In this document: piece after piece, positions 43,656 through 53,051 of the stretch
How the letters are laid out: the number at the start of each line of letters is the position of its first letter
How positions within the stretch are numbered: position 1 is the first letter of the stretch
DNA from: Malonomonas rubra DSM 5091
Lineage (GTDB): Bacteria; Desulfobacterota; Desulfuromonadia; Desulfuromonadales; Geopsychrobacteraceae
NCBI RefSeq assembly: GCF_900142125.1
Contig: NZ_FQZT01000007.1
Span: forward strand, 124,001-188,000
DNA length: 64,000 nucleotides
Direction of reading: 5' to 3'
Translations under genes and position numbers: made by a program
Notes under the pieces: generated by a model
Database searches by the model: none
Told to the model about the DNA's origin: nothing
What the model saw: only the letters and a program-made list of their open reading frames with translations

Positions 43656-45629
43656 ATGATTATGGCCCGACACCTGTTTTCATTCATAAATAAAATGAAG
43701 ATACGCTGGAAGATGCTGGTGGTTATCCTGCCGTTGGTCGTGGTTCCCATCTTCGTCCTCGGCGGACTGATCGGCTACATTGCGACGGAGCAGGCCTATC
43801 AAGGCATCACGGCAACCAGCAAGGCTGATCTCGATCACATGGCCAGCTTCACTCTCGACCTGCTTGACAGTCACTACCGCCAGTTCCAGGTTTACCGGCA
43901 GGACAAGAAAAAAATCGTCCAGCAGGAGATGAGGTCGCTGGTCGACCTCGCCTACACCCTGATCAACGAACAGCAACGTCAGCTGAATGAGGGGAAAATC
44001 AGCTTAAAGGCAGCGCAGCAAGCGGCCCGCAACAGCCTGAAAAACGTCAGCATCGGCAGCAGCGGCTACCTGTTTGCCATCGACACCGATGGCATGCTCC
44101 AAGTCCACCCGGCGCTGGAAGGGAAAAACGTCATCGACGCCCAGGATAAAGACGGTCGCTTCTTTATTCGCGAGATGATTGAGCAATCACTTGAAGTCGA
44201 GCCGTCTGAGGTCAGCTTCACTATCTACCCCTGGCGCAACGAAGAACTGGGAGACAAACAACCGCGGGAAAAAATCGTCGCGTTCCGCTACTGCCCGCGC
44301 TGGGATTGGGTGGTCGCCGCCGGCGGCTACCTGGATGAAACCTACGAAGATCCCATGTTTGAGCAAAGTGCCATGAAAACGCTGGCACAACAGATCAAGA
44401 GCAAGAAAGTCGGCAAAACCGGTTACATCTTCTGTATGGACAGCAGCGGCACCCTGACCATTCATCCAGATGCGGAAGGACGTAACATCAGCAACGCCCG
44501 CGACTCGGAATACCGCCCCTTTATCGCCGAAATGCTGGAGCAGAAAAACGGCTGGATCCGTTACCCCTGGCGCAACCAGGGTGAAAGCAAAGAGCGGATG
44601 AAGATTGTCCGCTACCGCTATTTCGAACCCTGGGACTGGATTGTCGCTGTCGGCAGCTACGAAGAAGAATTCTACCAGGCGGCCAACGAACTTAAATGGC
44701 GTATTGCGACCCATGTCTTCCTGCTACCGCTGTTCATTGGCCTGATTTCAGCAGCGCTGGTCTTCCTCGCCGCCAAGGTGTTGACCGACCCGATTCACGA
44801 AATGATCACGGTCATCCGCCGGGTCAAACAGGGGCGACTCGACGAACAGGTCCCGGTGGAGACGCACGACGAACTGGGTGAGTTGGCCATCGCCTTCAAC
44901 CGCATGACCCGCATGCTGCGAAAAAACAAAGAGATGGAGGCAGCACTGGCCCAGCAGGGCAAGATGGCCTCTCTCGGTGTGCTCTCTTCTGGCGTCGCTC
45001 ATGAAATCAACAACCCTCTCGGCGTTATTCTCGGTTACGCCGGCTACCTGGAGAAAAAGATCCCGGAGGATGACCCGAATTACACCTTCATCAACGAGAT
45101 CAAAAGGGAGAGCAAGCGCTGCAAGAAAATCGTTCAGGACCTTCTCAGCTACGCGCGTACTCCGAAGCCGGTGCTGGAAACAACCGACATGAACCGGCTG
45201 CTGCGGCAGATTATCGATTTCGCCGGCAACCACACCGATCTCTACCACATCAAAATTGTGCAGGAGCTGTCACAACACCTGCCCTCCGTCCCTGCTGACG
45301 GCGACCAACTCCGTCAGGTCGCGATCAACCTGTTGCTGAACGCAGGTGCGGCGATGCCGGATGGCGGAGAAATCCGTGTCAGCACAATTCTGGATGAAGA
45401 TCATTACATCCGCATTGAAGTGGCTGATAACGGAGAGGGAATTCCCGAAGAGAACCTGGAAAAGATTTTTGAGCCGTTTTTCACGACCAAAGCCCGTGGC
45501 ACAGGGCTTGGCCTGGCCATTACCAAGCAGATTATTGATATGCACCAAGGGGAAATGTATATAGACTCGCAAATTGGAGTCGGCACCACCGTGGTGATCC
45601 GGTTGCCGCTGGTGCGCGAGGAATATTGA
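43656..45629 (+). CDS. Cache-domain sensor histidine kinase (NtrB/DctB type)
   Basis: The 657-residue kinase has a membrane segment near residues 18-40 and a tandem Cache sensor. The two halves share the motif [22 protein letters not shown] and [23 protein letters not shown] second membrane segment (about 350-370), HAMP (about 372-425), HisKA with the His in [13 protein letters not shown], and HATPase ([15 protein letters not shown]) follow. dCache kinases of this type often sense carboxylates or amino acids. The NtrC-type regulator gene begins 87 bp later and is the likely partner. Two nearby start codons are possible (43656, 43662); no strong ribosome site is seen. Confidence 0.92.
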
Positions 45630-45716: not shown

Positions 45717-47081
45717 ATGCCCGCAAGAAAAATCATGATTGTTGACAACGAGGAAGGCCTCTGCCGCATGATGGAAGCCGTCCTCATGGATGACGGTCAC
45801 GCCGTGCGCTCTTTCACCAATCCACTGGAAGCGGTCGAGCTGTTCCGCCCCGGTGTCTGGGATCTGGTGATCAGTGACATCAAAATGCCCGGCATTGATG
45901 GACTCGAAGTGCTGCAACGGATCAAAGCGGTCGAACCGGACATCCCGGTAATCATGATAACCGCTTTTGCCACCGTAGAAATGTCGATTCAGGCATTGCG
46001 TAAGGGCGCTTACGACATGTTGACCAAGCCGTTCGAACCGGACGAGCTCCTGTTTCGTGTGCGAAATGCTCTAACTCACAACGAGTTACAGAGCGAAAAT
46101 AAACAACTACGTGAAGAACTGGCTGGTAAATTTAATTTCGACAATATCATCGGCGCCTCGATGGCCCTGCAGAAACTGCTGGACAAGGTGGAAAAGGTCG
46201 CCATCCGGGACACCTCGGTTCTGATCACCGGCGAATCGGGAACCGGCAAGGAGCTGATCGCGCAGGCAATCCACTACAACTCTCCACGTAAAGAGCAACC
46301 CTTTATCGCCATCAACTGCGGAGCCATCCCCGATTCGGTTCTGGAAAGCGAGCTGTTCGGCCATAAAAAGGGCTCTTTTACTGGGGCTGACAGCGACAAG
46401 GAAGGTCTGCTCAAAGCAGCCGATGGCGGCACTCTTTTCCTCGACGAAATTGGCAACCTGCCGCTTAACGTGCAAAAAACGCTGCTCAGGTTTCTGCAGG
46501 AGCAGGAGTTCCGCCGCATCGGCGACACCGAATCAACGCGGGTTGACGTGCGCCTGATCTCCGCTACCAACGCTGACCTGACCACCGATGTCGAGAAAGG
46601 TGAATTCCGCGAAGATCTCTTCTATCGCCTCAACGTCATCAACCTGCACCTACCACCACTGCGTGAGCGACGCGCGGACATTCCCCTGTTGGCAGCCCAT
46701 TTCATCGCCGAACAGAACAAAAAGTTCAACACCAGCATCAAAGGCTTGTCAGCCGAGGCCCAACGCGCTGCGAGCGAGTACAGTTGGCCCGGCAACATTC
46801 GCCAGTTGCGCAACGTCATCGAAGCCTGTATCACCATCGAGACGGGAGACCAGATCGATCTGTCCACCCTGGCGCAGTTCATCGAAACCGATGCCGTACC
46901 AACTGAAGAGGATGGCTACAATGAGGCGCTCGGCCGGTTTGAGATCGATTATCTGCGGCAACTGCTTCGATCCGTTGATGGAAATATCGAAGATGCCGCC
47001 CAGAAAGCAGGGATGAACATGGCAACGATCTACCGCAAACTGAAGAAGTACGGGTTGCGCAAGGAAGACATCCTCGACTGA
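45717..47081 (+). CDS. NtrC-family sigma-54-dependent response regulator
   Basis: The protein has 454 residues from the ATG at 45717 (AGAGAG upstream). The receiver (MIVDNEE; Asp in VISDIKMPG; Lys in LTKPF) is followed by a sigma-54 AAA+ domain with Walker A GESGTGKE, a GSFTGA loop (family GAFTGA with Ala changed to Ser), Walker B GGTLFLDEIG and the R-finger region. A C-terminal Fis-type helix-turn-helix (GNIEDAAQKAGMNMATIYRKLKKYG) binds DNA. It should activate sigma-54 promoters when phosphorylated by the upstream kinase. A sigma-54 promoter for the YaaH transporter and a pair of repeated TTTTGC-type sites lie just downstream. Confidence 0.95.
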   Translation: MPARKIMIVDNEEGLCRMMEAVLMDDGHAVRSFTNPLEAVELFRPGVWDLVISDIKMPGIDGLEVLQRIKAVEPDIPVIMITAFATVEMSIQALRKGAYDMLTKPFEPDELLFRVRNALTHNELQSENKQLREELAGKFNFDNIIGASMALQKLLDKVEKVAIRDTSVLITGESGTGKELIAQAIHYNSPRKEQPFIAINCGAIPDSVLESELFGHKKGSFTGADSDKEGLLKAADGGTLFLDEIGNLPLNVQKTLLRFLQEQEFRRIGDTESTRVDVRLISATNADLTTDVEKGEFREDLFYRLNVINLHLPPLRERRADIPLLAAHFIAEQNKKFNTSIKGLSAEAQRAASEYSWPGNIRQLRNVIEACITIETGDQIDLSTLAQFIETDAVPTEEDGYNEALGRFEIDYLRQLLRSVDGNIEDAAQKAGMNMATIYRKLKKYGLRKEDILD

Positions 47082-47082
47082 T

Positions 47083-47131
47083 TTTTGCAGTTTTGGAAAT
47101 CTGCGAAATCTGGATTTGCAAAACTGCAAAA
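47083..47131. promoter_or_regulatory. Tandem TTTTGC-N6-GCAAAA-type activator sites
   Basis: The element at 47114-47131 reads ATTTGC-AAAACT-GCAAAA (one mismatch to the palindrome). A degenerate partner, TTTTGC-AGTTTT-GGAAAT, starts 31 bp earlier, three helical turns. The outer 14-bp arms tttttgcagttttg and caaaactgcaaaaa are also exact complements. The same element occurs at 52862, 53002 and 53034. Confidence 0.65.
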
Positions 47132-47331
47132 AATTCCTAAAACCCCACAAAATCAACATCATACAGCGTTCTACTTTTGGTAGATAAATTTCCCCCCTGC
47201 TTCTACCCGTCCTGTTTTCGCACATTTGCAAAGCAAACAGCTTATCAAAGCAAACGTCTGAGCACTGAGAATCCATACAAGCTCTGCTAAATAGCGGGCT
47301 TTCTCACTTTTTTCAGAGAAGTCACAAAAAT

Positions 47332-47347
47332 GGGCACAGCCATTGCT
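47332..47347 (+). promoter_or_regulatory. Sigma-54 (-24/-12) promoter
   Basis: GGGCACAGCCATTGCT matches the consensus TGGCAC-N5-TTGCT at all key positions, with GG-N10-GC spacing. It ends 92 bp before the ATG of the YaaH-family transporter. Confidence 0.8.
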
Positions 47348-47439
47348 AGTTCTTCAGAGCATAGAAAAACCTCTTTTTAGGGGGGCGGGTTGGATTTGAA
47401 TCCGTCCTCCCCCCAATTTTTTTTTCGGAGGATAAAATC

Positions 47440-48039
47440 ATGACAAGAGATTTCCCCGTTGCCGAAAACAAAATCCCCAGCCTCGGCCTACTTGCCTTGG
47501 CTCTTAGTATAACCACCTACGCCATCAGCCAGACCGGCTACCTGTCAACACCTGCGGCTACCCTGGGAACCGCCCTGTTACTGGGTGGTGGGCTACAAAT
47601 CATGGCCGGCATCCGCTCACGTAATGCCGGGAGCCCATCAGCCACGGCAACCATGCTCCCTCTCGGTCTCTTCTGGCTGTCTCTGATTGCTTTTGAAGTT
47701 TTCCCGAAACTTGGCCTCGGCAAAACACCGGGAGCCGTCACAATGGTCGCCTACCTGAGTATGTGGGGCTTGTTCGCTGCCATCCTCTTCCTCGGCAGTT
47801 TTCAACAAAGCCGTGCCCTGCAACTGGTTTTTTCAACGCTGATGTTCTGTCTGTTGTTCCTTGCCATGGGCAAACTGCGCGACAACGCAGTATTCCTGCT
47901 GATTGGTGGAGTTTCCGGTCTCATCTGTGGCGCAGCAGCCTGCTATACCGCAATGGCTCAGCTGTTCAACCAGTGGATGGGTCGCTCAATCTTTCCCACC
48001 GGGCAATGGCAAGGCACATTGGAAAACGACCTTCACTAA
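47440..48039 (+). CDS. Acetate/succinate uptake transporter, GPR1/FUN34/YaaH family
   Basis: The 199-residue protein has six predicted membrane segments. It starts with an NKIPSLGLLALALSITTYAIS region that corresponds to the NPAPLGL motif of the family, slightly divergent. A GGGLQIMAGI segment matches the family's GGxxQxxAGI. YaaH-type proteins carry acetate, succinate or related short carboxylates. Expression from a strong sigma-54 promoter is inferred, directed by the adjacent NtrC-type regulator. GGAGG lies 7 bp before the ATG. A 130-residue membrane protein gene follows. Confidence 0.85.
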   Translation: MTRDFPVAENKIPSLGLLALALSITTYAISQTGYLSTPAATLGTALLLGGGLQIMAGIRSRNAGSPSATATMLPLGLFWLSLIAFEVFPKLGLGKTPGAVTMVAYLSMWGLFAAILFLGSFQQSRALQLVFSTLMFCLLFLAMGKLRDNAVFLLIGGVSGLICGAAACYTAMAQLFNQWMGRSIFPTGQWQGTLENDLH

Positions 48040-48123
48040 ACCGTTCCCCTCTTGAAAAAAAGTTTGAATTGGGGTAATTTGAGCCAGTTAAAGTTATAAA
48101 ACAGCATTCTATTAGGTTTTCGG

Positions 48124-48516
48124 GTGAACGTGAATTTAAGTCAACAAATGACCTTGTTGGGACTTGCGGCCATGGTCTTCTATGCCGTCATGCTGGCGAC
48201 AGGTGTCGTCGGGATGGATGTCATGCCGCAATTCATGGTCTCTGCCGTTATCTTTCTCTCCTCCGGTCGCTTAATGCGGATGGCAGCGAAAAAACTGCCG
48301 CCAAAAGAGATTGACGAGGAAAAGGAAAAACGCAAGCAGGAGCGGCCCAAAACTGACTGGGACTGGATGAGCCAATTTCTCAACTGGGCGATGGCGCTGA
48401 TCATTCTCGGAGCCTTGGCCCTCTGGATCATGAAACCGGTCGGGGTTTCGATAATCGATGCGATCAAACAGTACAAACCCGATTCGCACCCATATTATTC
48501 GGACCACATACCTTAG
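48124..48516 (+). CDS. Small membrane protein of unknown function
   Basis: The 130-residue protein starts with GTG (AGG about 8 bp upstream). It has two predicted N-terminal membrane segments (about residues 9-30 and 32-50), a charged linker rich in Lys and Glu (about 54-77), and a third membrane segment (about 86-105). It was not recognised as a known family. It lies 84 bp after the YaaH-family transporter gene and ends in a strong terminator, so it may be the last gene of that transcript. A role as an accessory to the transporter is only an inference. Confidence 0.7.
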   Translation: MNVNLSQQMTLLGLAAMVFYAVMLATGVVGMDVMPQFMVSAVIFLSSGRLMRMAAKKLPPKEIDEEKEKRKQERPKTDWDWMSQFLNWAMALIILGALALWIMKPVGVSIIDAIKQYKPDSHPYYSDHIP

Positions 48517-48540
48517 CCCAAGCTGAAAATTAATAAACCA

Positions 48541-48577
48541 AAGCCCTCCGCAAGCAATTGCCGAGGGCTTTTTTATT
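48541..48577 (+). terminator. Intrinsic terminator after the 130-aa membrane protein
   Basis: 8-bp arms (aagccctc/gagggctt) with a partly paired 14-nt loop are followed by ttttattt. Confidence 0.85.
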
Positions 48578-48828
48578 TCTGACCAACTGTAAAAGCTCGA
48601 GACATTTACCACCCCTGCTGGAACACCTTGTGGCCTTGTCGCTTGTAAAATATTGGCCATAAATCCAACCATGAATAAAAGTCCATGGCCTTGATGAAAT
48701 AGCCTTGCATCAGCTAAATTGATAGTTAGATAGCCCTTCCAGCATGGCCCACGGGATCTGGCGGGAGATCAAAGAAGAGGATCTTTCTGCTCCACTACCA
48801 TTTTAGCGAAGCAAGGAGAGAATCGACG
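48578..48828. other. Intergenic region upstream of the FG-GAP protein gene
   Basis: About 250 bp after the terminator, AT-rich and without a credible gene. The right end holds the ribosome site (AAGGAG) of the next gene. No clear promoter boxes. Confidence 0.45.
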
Positions 48829-49782
48829 ATGTCATTTAGCAAGCAATCGACTATAAGGCGACCAGAAACAACCGCTTCTCGCCGCAGTCGCCCTTTTTTC
48901 TTCTGGCTTTCGAGGACCCTTGCGGGATACCTGATAACGCTTGCTTTTCTTTTCCCTGCCAATGCCAGCGATGTCAAATTGGCAACCGACAGAACGTTAA
49001 CTGCCCTGAAAGCGGATAAAGCTGTTATCAGAGCCCTGACGGACGAATTTTCTCAACTTCCGGAAAAACAGATCAGCGTTAGCGAGGATGGTGCTGTTTA
49101 TGCCCAATACTCTCAGCCAACCACTCGCTATCAGCACGGAATTCTGGGTGACGCTATCGAGGCTGGACAGTTGATCGTCGCCAGGAATGGAACTTTTTAT
49201 AAGCATACTCTTGCAGAGCAGTACGTTTTTGAAGATATCAAGCCCCGTCTCTTCGATGTCGATAATGATGGGCAGATGGAGATTGTCACAATCAGGAGCC
49301 ACATCAAAAAAGGCGCCGGCATCATGATCTACAAGATCGAGAACGATGCACTGACTGAATTTGCCTGGATTGAAGAGATAGGAACTGCATCGAGATGGCT
49401 CAACATAGCAGCTATCTACGATCTGGATGGCGATGGACGCGTTGAAATGGCATGGATTCAGACACCCCACATCGGTGGCATTTTAAAAGTCGCCAGGATT
49501 CGTCCAGGAAAGCTCGTCGCGCTGTCGGAAAGCTCCCCCTACAGCAACCACAGCATTGGTGAAAGAAACCTCTGCCTCTCCCTGGTAGCCCAAGAGGAAA
49601 ACGCCACGCTCCTCTATGTTCCAGCACAAAATCGCCGCCAGATCGTAGGCTTTCAGCTAAAAGATAACACCATGAAAAAAATAAAAACCATCTCGCAGCC
49701 AGTGAACTTCTCAACCCCGCTGGTACGACAGCACAACTTCAGCAAAGTTGTTCAGAGTGGTGTTTCCTGCCCGGAATTCTGA
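48829..49782 (+). CDS. Secreted FG-GAP/VCBS repeat-like protein
   Basis: The 317-residue protein has a basic N-terminal stretch of about 23 residues and then a hydrophobic signal segment (PFFFWLSRTLAGYLITLAFLFPANA), so export is expected. The mature part has two calcium-binding loops of the FG-GAP/VCBS kind: DVDNDGQMEIVTI (about residue 143) and DLDGDGRVEMAWI (about 197). These sit in beta-propeller-like surroundings. It may be a cell-surface or periplasmic scaffold. Start: AAGGAG 11 bp before the ATG. It has no operon partner. Confidence 0.8.
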   Translation: MSFSKQSTIRRPETTASRRSRPFFFWLSRTLAGYLITLAFLFPANASDVKLATDRTLTALKADKAVIRALTDEFSQLPEKQISVSEDGAVYAQYSQPTTRYQHGILGDAIEAGQLIVARNGTFYKHTLAEQYVFEDIKPRLFDVDNDGQMEIVTIRSHIKKGAGIMIYKIENDALTEFAWIEEIGTASRWLNIAAIYDLDGDGRVEMAWIQTPHIGGILKVARIRPGKLVALSESSPYSNHSIGERNLCLSLVAQEENATLLYVPAQNRRQIVGFQLKDNTMKKIKTISQPVNFSTPLVRQHNFSKVVQSGVSCPEF

Positions 49783-49935
49783 TTTTTCCTGCCAGCACTT
49801 CGCAAGCGTCTGTATGCCTTCATCTTTGCAAAGCAGAGGTTTTTAGCATACTTTTTCATGGCCACTGACAGATTTCACATCATAGAGACCTGGAAGGCAC
49901 AGCACACGGAATAAACGCTTCAAGCCATAAGAACA

Positions 49936-50343
49936 CTACTCCGGCGCGATAACCGGGTAGCCTCTGGCAATCCAGTCAGTAATCCCCTTGGTGACATTAT
50001 AGACCCGGGAGAAGCCAACCTGCTGATCAAGAAACTGGCTGATAATCCCGGTGCGGTTACCGGTACGACAAATCAGGATAACCGGGTCATCTTTGCCAGC
50101 GATGGGTGCCAGCTGCGTCAGCCAGGCACGGGCATCGTAGTTACCGGCGGCATCGAAGAAAGTGATCAGATGACTGCCTTGAACAACTCCGGTTTGTTTC
50201 CACTCTTCCGCCCGACGAATATCGACAACTGGCACGCCTTCTGCCAGCAAGGTTTCCAGTTGAGCGTTATCAAGCTGTTTCACCTCAGCCTGAGCAGATA
50301 ACGCTATCAACAAAAGGAGCAGTAACGTAAGAATCGACCTCAT
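49936..50343 (-). CDS. Periplasmic rhodanese-domain protein
   Basis: The protein has 135 residues from the ATG at 50343. GGAGG sits 7 bp before this ATG but directly abuts the earlier ATG at 50349, so the later one is preferred. A signal peptide (LTLLLLLLIALSAQA) is followed by a single rhodanese domain with the active-site Cys in LICRTGNRT. Such proteins move sulfane sulfur or bind cysteine-modified partners. It is the last of three collinear minus-strand genes after the OFA transporter and cytochrome c genes. Confidence 0.9.
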   Translation of the reverse strand: MRSILTLLLLLLIALSAQAEVKQLDNAQLETLLAEGVPVVDIRRAEEWKQTGVVQGSHLITFFDAAGNYDARAWLTQLAPIAGKDDPVILICRTGNRTGIISQFLDQQVGFSRVYNVTKGITDWIARGYPVIAPE

Positions 50344-50357
50344 TTTCATCCTCCATT

Positions 50358-50456
50358 GAATTGTCGAGTTTTCTACTATTGTATAAGCCGACCGGCAGAG
50401 CTGACAAGTCGGAGCAGAACGAAAAAGAGGCCCCGCACTTGGCGGTGCCTCTTGAT
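50358..50456. repeat. Imperfect direct repeat, copy 1 (terminator plus upstream region)
   Basis: About 100 bp including attgtcgagttttctactattgtata and the stem ccccgcacttggcgg. It resembles 50968-51066 at about the same order and spacing. Confidence 0.65.
50421..50453 (-). terminator. Intrinsic terminator of the cytochrome c gene
   Basis: In the minus direction: aagaggc...gcctctt with an inner paired block ccgc/gcgg, followed by TTTTT. It begins about 100 bp after the stop of the minus-strand cytochrome gene. Confidence 0.8.
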
Positions 50457-50551
50457 TGAACGTAAGAGCTTATACTGTTTCCATATATCCAGATCGAACT
50501 TTGCTGTGCAGATTTTTTCGTACCAAAACTTGGCACTTAAGGCTCTGGATC

Positions 50552-50863
50552 TCAAGTTTGTGGATGATCAGTGTCAGCGGCAAAATCATATACAAACTGC
50601 CAGATATCCAGTCTGTCCTTTTGAGACAAATCAACAAAGACGCTCCCTGGATGTTTTCGTTTCTTGACGTTGAAGTATCTGTCCCACTGCGCCATCGTTT
50701 TGTCAGAAGGGGAAAGAGTGCCAGCCTCGGTGCCCATCTTGTGGCAGGGCACACAGCTTTTCTTGAACAGCACCCTTCCTTTGTACGGATTTCCACCCGA
50801 TATGGCGAACGCTGTTGAGGCCACAAAAGTGAAAATTATCAGCGAAACAACCACTCTCTTCAT
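50552..50863 (-). CDS. Small monoheme cytochrome c
   Basis: The 103-residue protein has a signal peptide (about 20 residues, cleavage near STAFA) and one heme-c site CVPCH (about residues 37-41). A Met as distal ligand is possible near MAQWDRYF or MGTEAG. The size and single CXXCH fit a class I-like periplasmic electron carrier. GGAGG lies 7 bp before the ATG. It lies between the OFA transporter and rhodanese genes on the same strand but has its own terminator and probably its own promoter. Confidence 0.9.
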   Translation of the reverse strand: MKRVVVSLIIFTFVASTAFAISGGNPYKGRVLFKKSCVPCHKMGTEAGTLSPSDKTMAQWDRYFNVKKRKHPGSVFVDLSQKDRLDIWQFVYDFAADTDHPQT

Positions 50864-50967
50864 GCTAATACCTCCATGCTCGGCCTCTGCTCGCGTTTTG
50901 AAGATAAATTTATAGCGGCAAATCCGCTGTTGCTCCGACTTCGCTCTCTTCCCTCATCCATCCACGA

Positions 50968-51066
50968 AATTGTTTAGTTTTCCACTATTATATATCTCTT
51001 CCCTCTGCCGGCAAGTCGCCGCCAGAACGAAAAAAGGGCCCCGCACTTGGCGGAGCCCTTTGATCG
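50968..51066. repeat. Imperfect direct repeat, copy 2 (terminator plus upstream region)
   Basis: About 100 bp that parallels 50358-50456: attgtttagttttccactattatata and the same ccccgcacttggcgg stem core. It places a terminator for the OFA gene and the upstream region of the cytochrome gene in the same arrangement as copy 1. Confidence 0.65.
51031..51061 (-). terminator. Intrinsic terminator of the OFA transporter gene
   Basis: In the minus direction: aaagggc...gcccttt around the same ccgc/gcgg core, followed by a T-run. It is 27 bp after the OFA stop codon. Confidence 0.88.
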
Positions 51067-51087
51067 ATCTTTTATTGAAACTCGATA

Positions 51088-52368
51088 TTAGTCTTGAGCG
51101 TTCTGCAGAACCAGATCTTCCTCTTCTGCGGTAACGGTTTCGGTCGCCTCGACAGCGGCCTTTTTCGGACGCAGGGTCAGGGCCATCATAGCACCGACGA
51201 GCAGCATCACACCGGCGACGGTGAAGGAGGTGCTCATGCCACCGAACTTAGCCGACAGGAAGGCGGACAGTTTGACCAGAACGAATGCGCCGACGCCCCA
51301 TGCGGAGAACAGGATACCGTAGTTCATGCCGTAGTTTGCGCTGCCCCAGTAGTCCTTGGCGAAGGACGGGAACAGGGACAGGTTGGTACCGTAGTTGAAG
51401 CCGATGAAGGATGCGAGCAGGGTCACCAGTACTGCGCTGGAACCTTCGCCAGTAACGACCGGGATTGCTGCGAACATCAGGGCAGCTTGGAAAACCAGCA
51501 TGATAGTCAGGGTTGCGGCGCGACCGATTTTGTCAGAGAGGACACCGGCAACAACACGACCGGAAGCGTTACCGACCGACATGACACAGACAGCGATGAA
51601 AGCCATCTCGCCCATGCTCTGCTTGGCCAGACCAGCGATGCTACCGATAACCATCAGGCCAGCACCGGCACCGATGAAGTAAGTCAACCAGCAAGTGTAG
51701 AAGCGACCATCTTTGAGCATCTGGGACGGAGTCTTGTCTTCAACAGCAACTTTCTTAGCAGCAGGTGCACCTTTTTTAGCAGCAGCTTCAGCCGGGACAA
51801 AACCTGCCGGCGGATTAGCAACCAGCATTGCCATACCACAGACAACGACCACAAAGGCAATACCGAGGTACATCATAGTCTGCTGCAGACCGTAAGAAGC
51901 GAGCAGGCTTTTTGCGATCGGGGCCAGGTAAACCGGGGCAATACCAAAGCCGGCAACAACGATACCAGCGATCAGGCCGGTTTTCGCCGACGAGAACCAC
52001 TTCAGAGCCGGCGGAGTCGCTGCCGAGTAACCGAAGCCGAAACCGGTACCAGCAACCAGACCGAAGCCAACAATCCAGCCCCAGTAGCTGGAAGTTTGGG
52101 AACAGATGATGAAACCCGCACCAACCAGAATACCACCGAGAATAGCAGTCAGACGCGGACCAACTTTATCCTGCATCTTACCGCCGATAATCATCGACAA
52201 AGCAAAAGCGAGACATGCAGTTGCGTACGGGTCGCCAGCGCCATCAAACAATTTTCCGATTTCACCTTTGAGCATACTGTAGGCATAAAGAACACCTAGG
52301 GCCAGGTTGATACCGGTACCTGCCAAGACGACTGTCCAACCACGGGCATTTGAAGTTTTTTGACTCAT
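51088..52368 (-). CDS. OFA (oxalate/formate antiporter) family MFS transporter
   Basis: The protein has 426 residues from the ATG at 52368, which carries a good GGAG-rich ribosome site (gagaggagaaagttgttATG). The start MSQKTSNARGWTVVLAGTGINLALGVLYAYSML is a classic OFA N terminus. About 12 membrane segments follow, with a cytoplasmic linker rich in Ala/Lys (AEAAAKKGAPAAKKVAVEDKTPSQMLKDGRFYTCW) between helices 6 and 7. The family exchanges oxalate, formate or other small monocarboxylates. The same frame remains open upstream to 52704, so a fused longer protein is possible (see next entry). Sigma-54-like and TTTTGC-type elements lie upstream. Confidence 0.9.
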   Translation of the reverse strand: MSQKTSNARGWTVVLAGTGINLALGVLYAYSMLKGEIGKLFDGAGDPYATACLAFALSMIIGGKMQDKVGPRLTAILGGILVGAGFIICSQTSSYWGWIVGFGLVAGTGFGFGYSAATPPALKWFSSAKTGLIAGIVVAGFGIAPVYLAPIAKSLLASYGLQQTMMYLGIAFVVVVCGMAMLVANPPAGFVPAEAAAKKGAPAAKKVAVEDKTPSQMLKDGRFYTCWLTYFIGAGAGLMVIGSIAGLAKQSMGEMAFIAVCVMSVGNASGRVVAGVLSDKIGRAATLTIMLVFQAALMFAAIPVVTGEGSSAVLVTLLASFIGFNYGTNLSLFPSFAKDYWGSANYGMNYGILFSAWGVGAFVLVKLSAFLSAKFGGMSTSFTVAGVMLLVGAMMALTLRPKKAAVEATETVTAEEEDLVLQNAQD

Positions 52369-52704
52369 AACAACTTTCTCCTCTCTCTGTGCTTCGATAG
52401 AATGATTATTCGCACTTAAATAACGAAGGCGATAAGGCAACGGCCATTTGTTCCGAAAAGCGATTTTTACCTGGGCGGTTTTTCTTTCTTCTGCGGCAGC
52501 TGGCTGATCTGTTCTGAAACGAGCAGCAGCCGGTTGATGATTCAGCTCTTCCGGGTGCCGGGCGACCAGCTCCTGGAATTTCTCGCACTCGCTATAGCGG
52601 CCAGAGCAATAATGCGAGATCGCCTCGACATCATGCGGAGAGATATAATCTGCTCCGACATCACAGAAATTTTCTCCTCGACCGTAATAGGGACAAACTG
52701 ACAT
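52369..52704 (-). CDS. Cys-rich small-protein-like module, in frame with the OFA transporter
   Basis: The 112-codon stretch from the ATG at 52704 (GGAG 7 bp upstream) has SVCPYYGRGENFCDVGADYISPHDVEAISHYCSGRYSECEKFQELV. This Cys-rich motif is like those of small stand-alone proteins in related bacteria (from memory). After about residue 70 the sequence loses character (AQVKIAFRNKWPLPYRLRYL), as if intergenic DNA were being read. No stop codon separates it from the OFA start at 52368. Either the two are fused or one small gene has lost its stop. The four to five Cys could bind metal. Confidence 0.55.
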
Positions 52705-52758
52705 GCGATACTCCACAGCGAAAAATCTTCGACGACCTATTCGTCACTCTCCCCTTAC

Positions 52759-52774
52759 TACAAGCGCCATACCA
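52759..52774 (-). promoter_or_regulatory. Candidate sigma-54 promoter toward the OFA-side gene
   Basis: On the minus strand TGGTATGGCGCTTGTA fits TGGYRYR-N4-TTGCW except for T in place of the C of the -12 GC. It lies about 55 bp upstream of the ATG at 52704. Confidence 0.4.
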
Positions 52775-52860
52775 ACTCACAAAAAAAAATAAATTGGCCT
52801 GTCATTATAAGCACTTAAAGTAGCTTCTGTGTTTTTCTAAAGTTGTTTTAGCGCAGGATG

Positions 52861-52880
52861 TTTTTGCATCTGTGCAAAAA
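52861..52880. promoter_or_regulatory. TTTTGC-N6-GCAAAA palindrome (site B)
   Basis: TTTTTGCA-tctg-TGCAAAAA has 8-bp perfect arms. It is the best match to the element next to the NtrC-type gene. Confidence 0.65.
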
Positions 52881-53001
52881 GCGAGATGAGACCAAAAGAG
52901 AGGACGAACAGCTATCTCAGAGCATTATCATATCTGTGAAAGCCGCATAAAAAGGGGATTTACAGGCTCACTAAAAATTTACACGTATACAGAAAACAGG
53001 G

Positions 53002-53019
53002 TTTTGCAATTGCGCAAAA
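53002..53019. promoter_or_regulatory. TTTTGC-N6-GCAAAA element (site C)
   Basis: TTTTGC-AATTGC-GCAAAA; site D begins 32 bp to the right, three helical turns. Confidence 0.6.
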
Positions 53020-53033
53020 GCCTTTGGGGACTG

Positions 53034-53051
53034 TTTTGCGTAATTGCAAAA
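53034..53051. promoter_or_regulatory. TTTTGC-N6-GCAAAA element (site D)
   Basis: TTTTGC-GTAATT-GCAAAA. It overlaps a weak plus-strand sigma-54-like sequence (TGGGGACTGTTTTGCG, 53025-53040). Confidence 0.6.

Follow-up and report, generated by a model that had tools for sequence, protein, structure and literature searches.

Short acids, acetate among them, serve the metal- and sulfur-reducing Desulfuromonadales as key electron donors, and the regulation of these bacteria is little mapped. As background, activators of the NtrC family usually bind more than one palindromic site, roughly 80–300 bp before the promoter; the CrbR/ErdR and RpuR regulators are of the LuxR type and, to our knowledge, are not sigma-54 dependent; and Desulfovibrio vulgaris, with which comparisons are made below, belongs to another order. 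The present analysis concerns 64,000 nucleotides of Malonomonas rubra DSM 5091 (contig C17, positions 124001-188000, within a genome of 3.96 Mb), called here ‘the window’, in which a palindromic element, first written TTTTGC-N6-GCAAAA, recurs near the genes of an NtrC-type regulator, a YaaH-family transporter and an OFA transporter. An earlier note, made from the sequence alone, had proposed that one bacterial enhancer-binding protein coordinates the uptake of a short carboxylate and B12-dependent metabolism. It is probable (roughly 0.86 by our estimate) that this NtrC-type regulator uses the element as its upstream activating sequence, by the mechanism outlined below.

Among described systems, the best NCBIfam matches of the regulator and of the adjacent kinase are AtoC (446.9 bits) and AtoS (258.9 bits), the short-chain fatty acid/acetoacetate system of Escherichia coli, but both scores lie far below the equivalog cut-offs (714 for AtoC and 646 for AtoS). 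AtoC likewise activates sigma-54 promoters, and TGCA or TGC cores occur in both of its atoD sites; however, the accessible part of the source describes an inverted pair of 20-bp sites that lack a strict consensus (PMC3118216), whereas here the sites follow TTTYGCA-N4-TGCRAAA and the targets are transporters. In D. vulgaris, two-component sigma-54 activators (the lactate regulator DVU3023 and others) also act on lactate permeases and carboxylate genes, in regulons that rest on comparative genomics and binding assays; yet the genes are others, and no OFA or YaaH regulon with this element is among them in the sections of the sources at hand (PMC3333781, PMC4641369). CrbS/CrbR (MxtR/ErdR) for acetate and RpuS/RpuR for pyruvate likewise exert two-component control over the uptake or use of short monocarboxylates, but CrbS-type and RpuS kinases are SLC5-STAC fusions according to the available excerpts (PMC5715377, PMC9100948), unlike the double-Cache kinase found here. 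Literature on Geobacter, Desulfovibrio, bacterial sigma-54 and the G. metallireducens genome, as partly accessible and with subscription papers mostly uncovered, holds no description of the element or its regulon; PMC545781 is without sigma-54 content. The kind is known, namely an NtrC-family sigma-54 regulon, and within it this set of regulator, sites and targets appears to be new. Such a conserved set can be tested in a cultured relative; from it, the kinase, the regulator, both transporters and a hydrolase-like gene elsewhere in the genome gain a probable function, and attention is drawn to an apparently undescribed Cys-rich domain that members of either transporter family carry.

In the proposed mechanism, the kinase would sense a C2–C3 monocarboxylate (acetate, propionate, pyruvate or lactate) via its two Cache modules and phosphorylate the regulator, whose dimers would fill two or three TTTYGCA-N4-TGCRAAA palindromes and, once bound, would loop to a sigma-54 polymerase ~100 bp downstream. 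Transcription would result of the YaaH unit with its TctB-like gene, of the OFA unit with its Cys-rich N-terminus and of the unlinked hydrolase-like gene. The sites, promoters, spacing, gene content, co-occurrence and conservation are read from sequence, and confidence in the regulon so predicted is high.

The palindromic element and its conservation

Sixty genomes (own and relatives) were searched for the pattern and for YaaH, OFA and the regulator, and 60 stretches around the three genes were fetched for comparison; G000 stands for the own genome, other G numbers for genomes searched, C for a contig and L for a fetched locus. The palindrome is confirmed, and its conservation extends over the order. 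Upstream of OFA, 41 of 42 regions match TTTYGCR-N4-YGCRAAA with no more than one mismatch, 29 of them exactly, as against 3/42 and 0/42, respectively, for the reversed pattern in the same regions and a mean of 0.42 regions (maximum 3) in 50 shuffles at one mismatch. These regions, up to 1 kb long, come from 41 of the 43 OFA-bearing genomes, own included; two short ones are counted (L174, 649 bp; L195, 348 bp), L164 (0 bp upstream) is left out, and OFA fragments in G034 and G044 and a second G028 copy (G028:C81) stand outside the count, the listed sites of G034 and G044 falling at the expected distance from the fragments. The fairer and only independent test uses the original pattern outside the genus, because the refined pattern derives partly from the tested sequences: TTTTGC-N6-GCAAAA occurs exactly in 12/37 OFA regions and with at most one mismatch in 29/37, the reversed pattern in 0/37 at either level. 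Compared in this way, as the earlier note had recommended, the orthologous intergenic regions keep the element across the order.

Sites at ≤1 mismatch precede YaaH in 19 of 43 upstream regions, and many site-free YaaH genes come after OFA in an operon. In most mapped stretches, palindromes stand between the regulator and YaaH and 5′ of OFA; in G046, YaaH and the regulator are on different contigs, yet YaaH retains an exact site together with a promoter, pointing to action in trans. The 29 named OFA loci, of which several duplicate records already counted, include 18 with a site within 1 kb. The 11 others include three with too little upstream DNA (L214, L225, L232), one gene fragment (L231), and L222-L224, L226 and L228-L230, whose OFA is 57–60% identical and has no site within 1 kb upstream. 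L223 and L230 have three sites beyond that distance; in Pelobacter sp. GS8 (L230), the sites are followed in a row by a Cys-rich open reading frame (ORF; L230:5661, two genes before OFA), a 349-aa ORF and OFA.

In the window, pattern search confirmed the copies noted earlier at 47114 (one mismatch), 52862, 53002 and 53034, the last two spaced by 32 bp, a pair conserved in G003 and G007. When the region is aligned with G003, G007 and G006, the degenerate partner of 47114 given in the earlier note, at 47083, falls where the sequence is not conserved and is gapped in part; it was rejected as a partner site. As judged from the sequences, the true partner of 47114 is the site at 47216, missed at first reading: both are conserved, 101–103 bp apart in relatives and 102 bp here. 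The recurrence and conservation of TTTTGC-N6-GCAAAA stand, but its half-sites are really 7 bp long with a 4-bp spacer, TTTYGCA-N4-TGCRAAA, as derived from 106 distinct sites (two-fold consensus TTTYGCA-NWWN-TGCRAAA). Neighbouring sites are most often 30–33, 101–102, 137–141 or 166–171 bp apart.

A genome-wide scan, also recommended earlier, was run with patterns instead of a matrix and gave an excess over the reversed pattern. For the original pattern, five exact copies, three of them the OFA sites, compare with one reversed among the matches listed, and 53 with 22 at ≤1 mismatch. Only three places in the own genome have at least two refined sites (≤1 mismatch) within 200 bp, namely YaaH, OFA and C27:20550/20642, the last belonging to the unlinked hydrolase-like gene; ~0.03 such pairs would be expected were 23 sites placed at random.

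These counts bear on the notion that the palindrome is a product of chance or non-regulatory conserved DNA, for instance copies of a dispersed repeat. It is true that the window alone has a modest excess (11 matches at ≤2 mismatches; mean of 100 shuffles 5.87, with 4/100 reaching 11) and that TTTTGCCCGGCAGCAAAA is present in G058 ten times or more in identical form, on many contigs and on either strand, seemingly as a dispersed repeat that mimics the original pattern. However, sites with differing flanks and central bases recur at three gene families, at limited promoter distance and in many families of the order, and a chance origin is contradicted by the OFA region counts versus controls and by the unlinked hydrolase set; such an origin is extremely improbable.

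Promoters and target genes

The promoters are generally of the type TGGYAY-N5-TTGC, and the -24/-12 signature (GG-N10-GC) is clear at the YaaH unit and the hydrolase gene and weak at OFA. Before YaaH, the near-consensus sigma-54 promoter of the earlier note was recovered, with sites between it and the regulator; its core is nearly invariant in three relatives, and site 47216 starts 116 bp before it. The OFA promoter has TTGT for TTGC at -12 (GT) and aligns with the intact TGGTACGGCGGTTGCG of G003; the -12 element is intact in most relatives, and the TTGT version is also found in L221. Of 86 regions scanned, 61 have a site at ≤2 mismatches, and in 53 of these the top-scoring sigma-54 candidate outperforms composition shuffles (p ≤0.05), which bears on the association of element and sigma-54 promoters that the earlier note had suggested testing. 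At ≤1 mismatch, 59 of 61 regions (60 upstream regions and the own hydrolase gene) have a downstream candidate of score ≥16.5, the nearest site lying at 87–148 bp in 45/59 and at 238–287 bp in 14/59. In number and distance, the palindromes are as expected for an NtrC-family sigma-54 activator, and rpoN is present (Sigma54_DBD match of 223.1 bits at C19 of the own genome).

The hydrolase-like gene is supported, on sequence grounds, as an additional and unlinked target. A protein search yielded 30 hydrolase loci, of which 13 have a site within 700 bp and 13 do not, two lie directly behind YaaH (G041, G046) and two are cut by contig ends (L258, L277). Eight further rows came without a locus: L244 covers one of them, and the other seven stand outside the analysis, although the site listing gives for one of these seven (G045:C7) an exact site 348 bp upstream. 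Three more site-bearing copies (L235, L244 and L252) were met through their sites, which biases the sample; L235 and L252 match only in part, and L235 is too short for the tree. The site-bearing copies come from 16 genomes (own and 15 others), and every one of them has a promoter candidate scoring ≥16.5; the reversed pattern has no match in the hydrolase upstream regions examined. In a midpoint-rooted tree, the 13 copies that lack a site group apart in a single clade (99/98). The own protein has Ala in place of the nucleophile Ser of the G-x-S-x-G elbow and HD for the usual HG; the nucleophile is replaced by Ala or Gly in 9/16 site-bearing copies and is Ser in 7/16 of these and in 13/13 of the site-free clade.

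The second set of sites lies, as noted earlier, in the region where OFA diverges from a cobalamin adenosyltransferase gene, 185–357 bp upstream of the start of the latter. The sites might also, or instead, serve this gene and link uptake to B12 metabolism, and sites are indeed present upstream of all ten copies beside OFA, own included, in the divergent arrangement. However, of the 15 unlinked copies for which 700 bp upstream are available (L297, with 90 bp upstream, and the gene fragment L309 being excluded), eight of them in regulator-bearing genomes, none has a site; in the ten linked copies, the best sigma-54 candidate (the top one only) never falls between the nearest site and the adenosyltransferase; and OFA units devoid of this neighbour retain their sites. 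A B12 link, as proposed in the earlier note, is thus very unlikely, the gene having sites only where OFA adjoins and no top-scoring promoter candidate placed for it. We rejected it as a regulon target, and it is probably a bystander, to judge from this distribution.

The regulator, its signal and its transporters

All three parts of an NtrC-type activator (REC, sigma-54 AAA+ and Fis-type helix–turn–helix, HTH) are present in the regulator, whose loop reads GSFTGA (GAFTGA-type), a variant also given for DVU2394 in the portion of the source at hand (PMC4641369). Whether it is the binder deserves scrutiny, since the own genome has 32 further NtrC-like matches, the link of regulator to element is sequence-based, and G005 (76% complete) keeps a hydrolase gene with site and promoter while no regulator ortholog was found there. 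The palindrome could then be the operator of a different protein, such as another enhancer-binding protein or an acid-responsive one-component repressor, the NtrC-type regulator acting elsewhere. This alternative is unlikely in view of four lines of evidence. First, among the matches listed, regulator orthologs (≥66% identity, the next matches listed being at ≤48%) occur in 46/60 genomes, own included, and OFA (≥55% identity) is never without one: 43/60 genomes have OFA and all 43 the regulator, 3/60 have the regulator without OFA and 14/60 neither (Fisher p 4e-11, kinship ignored; all associations lie within one order and p-values therefore overstate independence). Second, the sites stand at activator distance from sigma-54 promoters. 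Third, the HTH recognition helix MNM[AT]T[IV]YRK is confined to the ortholog group, being found in 68/68 ortholog rows (some genomes twice, partial matches excluded), with MNMATIYRK nearly invariant, and absent from the 26 own-genome paralogs with aligned HTH (3 more did not align there). Fourth, 21 relatives have regulator, YaaH and OFA within a single fetched stretch. Exact refined sites number 94 versus 13 reversed in the 46 regulator-bearing genomes, and 10 versus 2 in the 14 regulator-free ones, among the matches listed. These sequence comparisons support the idea that a single enhancer-binding protein serves several transporters of short carboxylates: for YaaH and OFA it holds through sites, promoters, co-occurrence, gene order and HTH helix, but the part that concerned B12 does not. 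Binding by this regulator and activation as the direction of control are what we infer from them.

The signal and the substrates are likewise inferred. Compared with the acetate/propionate pockets of 4k08 and 5g4y (pocket residues from the accessible parts of PMC3831638 and PMC5062169), each Cache module of the kinase retains Tyr/His/Tyr/Lys and one Trp; the second sandwiching Trp is Phe in both, and the hydrophobic contacts vary. Because most of these residues are kept in both modules, a C2–C3 monocarboxylate is the likely kinase signal and, as a best guess from sequence, also the cargo; confidence in both is moderate. YaaH scores 123.8 bits with NCBIfam AceTr_1 (cut-off 50), and OFA, in the frame 51091-52707, scores 368.5 bits (cut-off 320) with SfMCT, a proton-coupled L-lactate transporter of the major facilitator superfamily (MFS). 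The residues N276, R280 and Y119, which hold the carboxylate in SfMCT according to the part of the source available (PMC6573034), align with N267, R271 and Y114 of OFA; Y331, F359 and L28 are also kept, and L145, F335 and C362 are changed. OFA differs from SfMCT in its proton site, discussed next, and in the Cys-rich region that precedes most of its copies. Its coupling or substrate may differ as well, and it is therefore named SfMCT-like.

Besides the G005 case, several points weigh against the proposed regulon. The proton-site residues H250, R256, D257, K377, D378 and Y383 of SfMCT are S, K, Q, S, A and M in OFA. The own OFA promoter taken alone is not significant (score 14.5/20, shuffle p 0.665), and the refined pattern at ≤1 mismatch shows a weak excess overall in the own genome (23 versus 14 reversed). 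The single miss among the 42 OFA regions is a second, SfMCT-like copy in G055 (L156). The refined pattern was partly read from sequences later used to test it, and the genomes are related, so that counts are not independent events. In L226 (Geobacter metagenome-assembled genome UBA6169), OFA (57%) has no element copy despite a strong sigma-54 promoter candidate; a regulator-like gene (60–65% identity) lies ~3 kb away, and this may perhaps be a sister regulon with a different site. Finally, GSU2490, an OFA of G. sulfurreducens and a possible ortholog of the present one, is given an RpoD promoter in the part of PMC2725144 available.

The Cys-rich domain has four invariant Cys in 27 chosen sequences, with the signature CP[YF]..C-D-V-G..Y-I-S..C..C. 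An in-frame open extension of at least 108 codons lies 5′ of OFA in 36/42 copies, and in other families the domain precedes YaaH copies; L154, L161 and L192 are among the loci that show the domain, and the own genome has a single copy. Searches of Pfam, NCBIfam and PDB assigned it to no family, the sole hits being a weak one in Pfam and a weak one in NCBIfam, each with 1/27 sequences, and a fold search with a model of predicted local distance difference test (pLDDT) 71.7 gave no PDB match with E below 7. The domain found on both transporter families thus appears to be undescribed. A speculative and rather doubtful extension is an order-wide uptake-control module, in which the kinase, the Cys-rich domain on two unrelated transporter families and a hydrolase-fold protein losing its Ser would together set carboxylate import, the hydrolase-like protein binding a ligand or acting as a partner instead of serving as an enzyme, and the Cys-rich domain, as a metal or redox centre, gating the transporter.

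Feature coordinates and minor observations

Table 1. Features of the predicted regulon in M. rubra DSM 5091; positions are those of the window unless a locus or contig is named
Feature	Position	Strand	Details
Sensor histidine kinase	43656-45629	+	Pfam dCache_2, sCache_2, HAMP, HisKA, HATPase_c; two periplasmic Cache modules
NtrC-family response regulator, proposed element binder	45717-47081	+	Pfam Response_reg, Sigma54_activat, HTH_8
Element, YaaH unit, distal site	47114-47131		ATTTGCAAAACTGCAAAA, one mismatch to TTTTGC-N6-GCAAAA; kept in G003, G007, G006
Element, YaaH unit, proximal site	47216-47233		TTTCGCACATTTGCAAAG; kept in G003, G007, G006
YaaH sigma-54 promoter	47332-47347	+	GGGCACAGCCATTGCT; score 19/20, reached by 0/200 composition shuffles
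YaaH/acetate uptake transporter family	47440-48039	+	NCBIfam AceTr_1, Pfam Gpr1_Fun34_YaaH
Small membrane protein, TctB-like	48124-48516	+	Pfam TctB 22.7 bits, below cut-off 29.1
OFA/MFS monocarboxylate transporter, SfMCT-like	51088-52368	-	NCBIfam SfMCT; PDB 6g9x E=2.2e-40
Cys-rich domain, in frame with OFA	52540-52704	-	start 52704 if both form one protein
OFA sigma-54-like promoter	52774-52759	-	TGGTATGGCGCTTGTA, weak -12; not listed in the earlier note
Element, OFA unit, proximal site	52862-52879		exact TTTTGC-N6-GCAAAA; starts 105 bp before OFA promoter
Element, OFA unit, distal pair, first member	53002-53019		exact TTTTGC-N6-GCAAAA
Element, OFA unit, distal pair, second member	53034-53051		exact TTTTGC-N6-GCAAAA
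alpha/beta-hydrolase-like gene	L233:5492-6376 (G000:C27)		sites C27:20550/20642; promoter TGGTATATTCATTGCT

Some other copies in the own genome were set aside. A lone exact site at C25:123071 (L018:5072) lacks a convincing sigma-54 promoter nearby, and a comparison limited to exact matches places the refined sites listed for G003 and G007 at other positions; for both reasons it is treated as unproven. This copy stands between a small gene behind a symporter cluster, which we take from its sequence, and not from a family search, to be of SLC5 type, and a gene of 634 aa. The exact site C15:16431 is one base off the refined pattern, and the original-pattern pairs on C3 (4743/4777) and C22 (60211/60261) each retain one member only under the refined pattern at one mismatch. 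A helical-phase reading of the site-to-promoter spacing (groups near 90, 104 and 116) led nowhere and is not claimed.

As regards the layout, the genes follow in the order double-Cache kinase, NtrC-type regulator, YaaH and TctB-like gene, with OFA ~3 kb further on the minus strand; in the neighbourhood map, the TctB-like gene adjoins YaaH in many relatives. The closest named OFA-bearing record is a metagenome-assembled genome labelled Malonomonas rubra, whose OFA is 92% identical to the own one, and the whole cluster is present in a Pelovirga terrestris record labelled as a strain.

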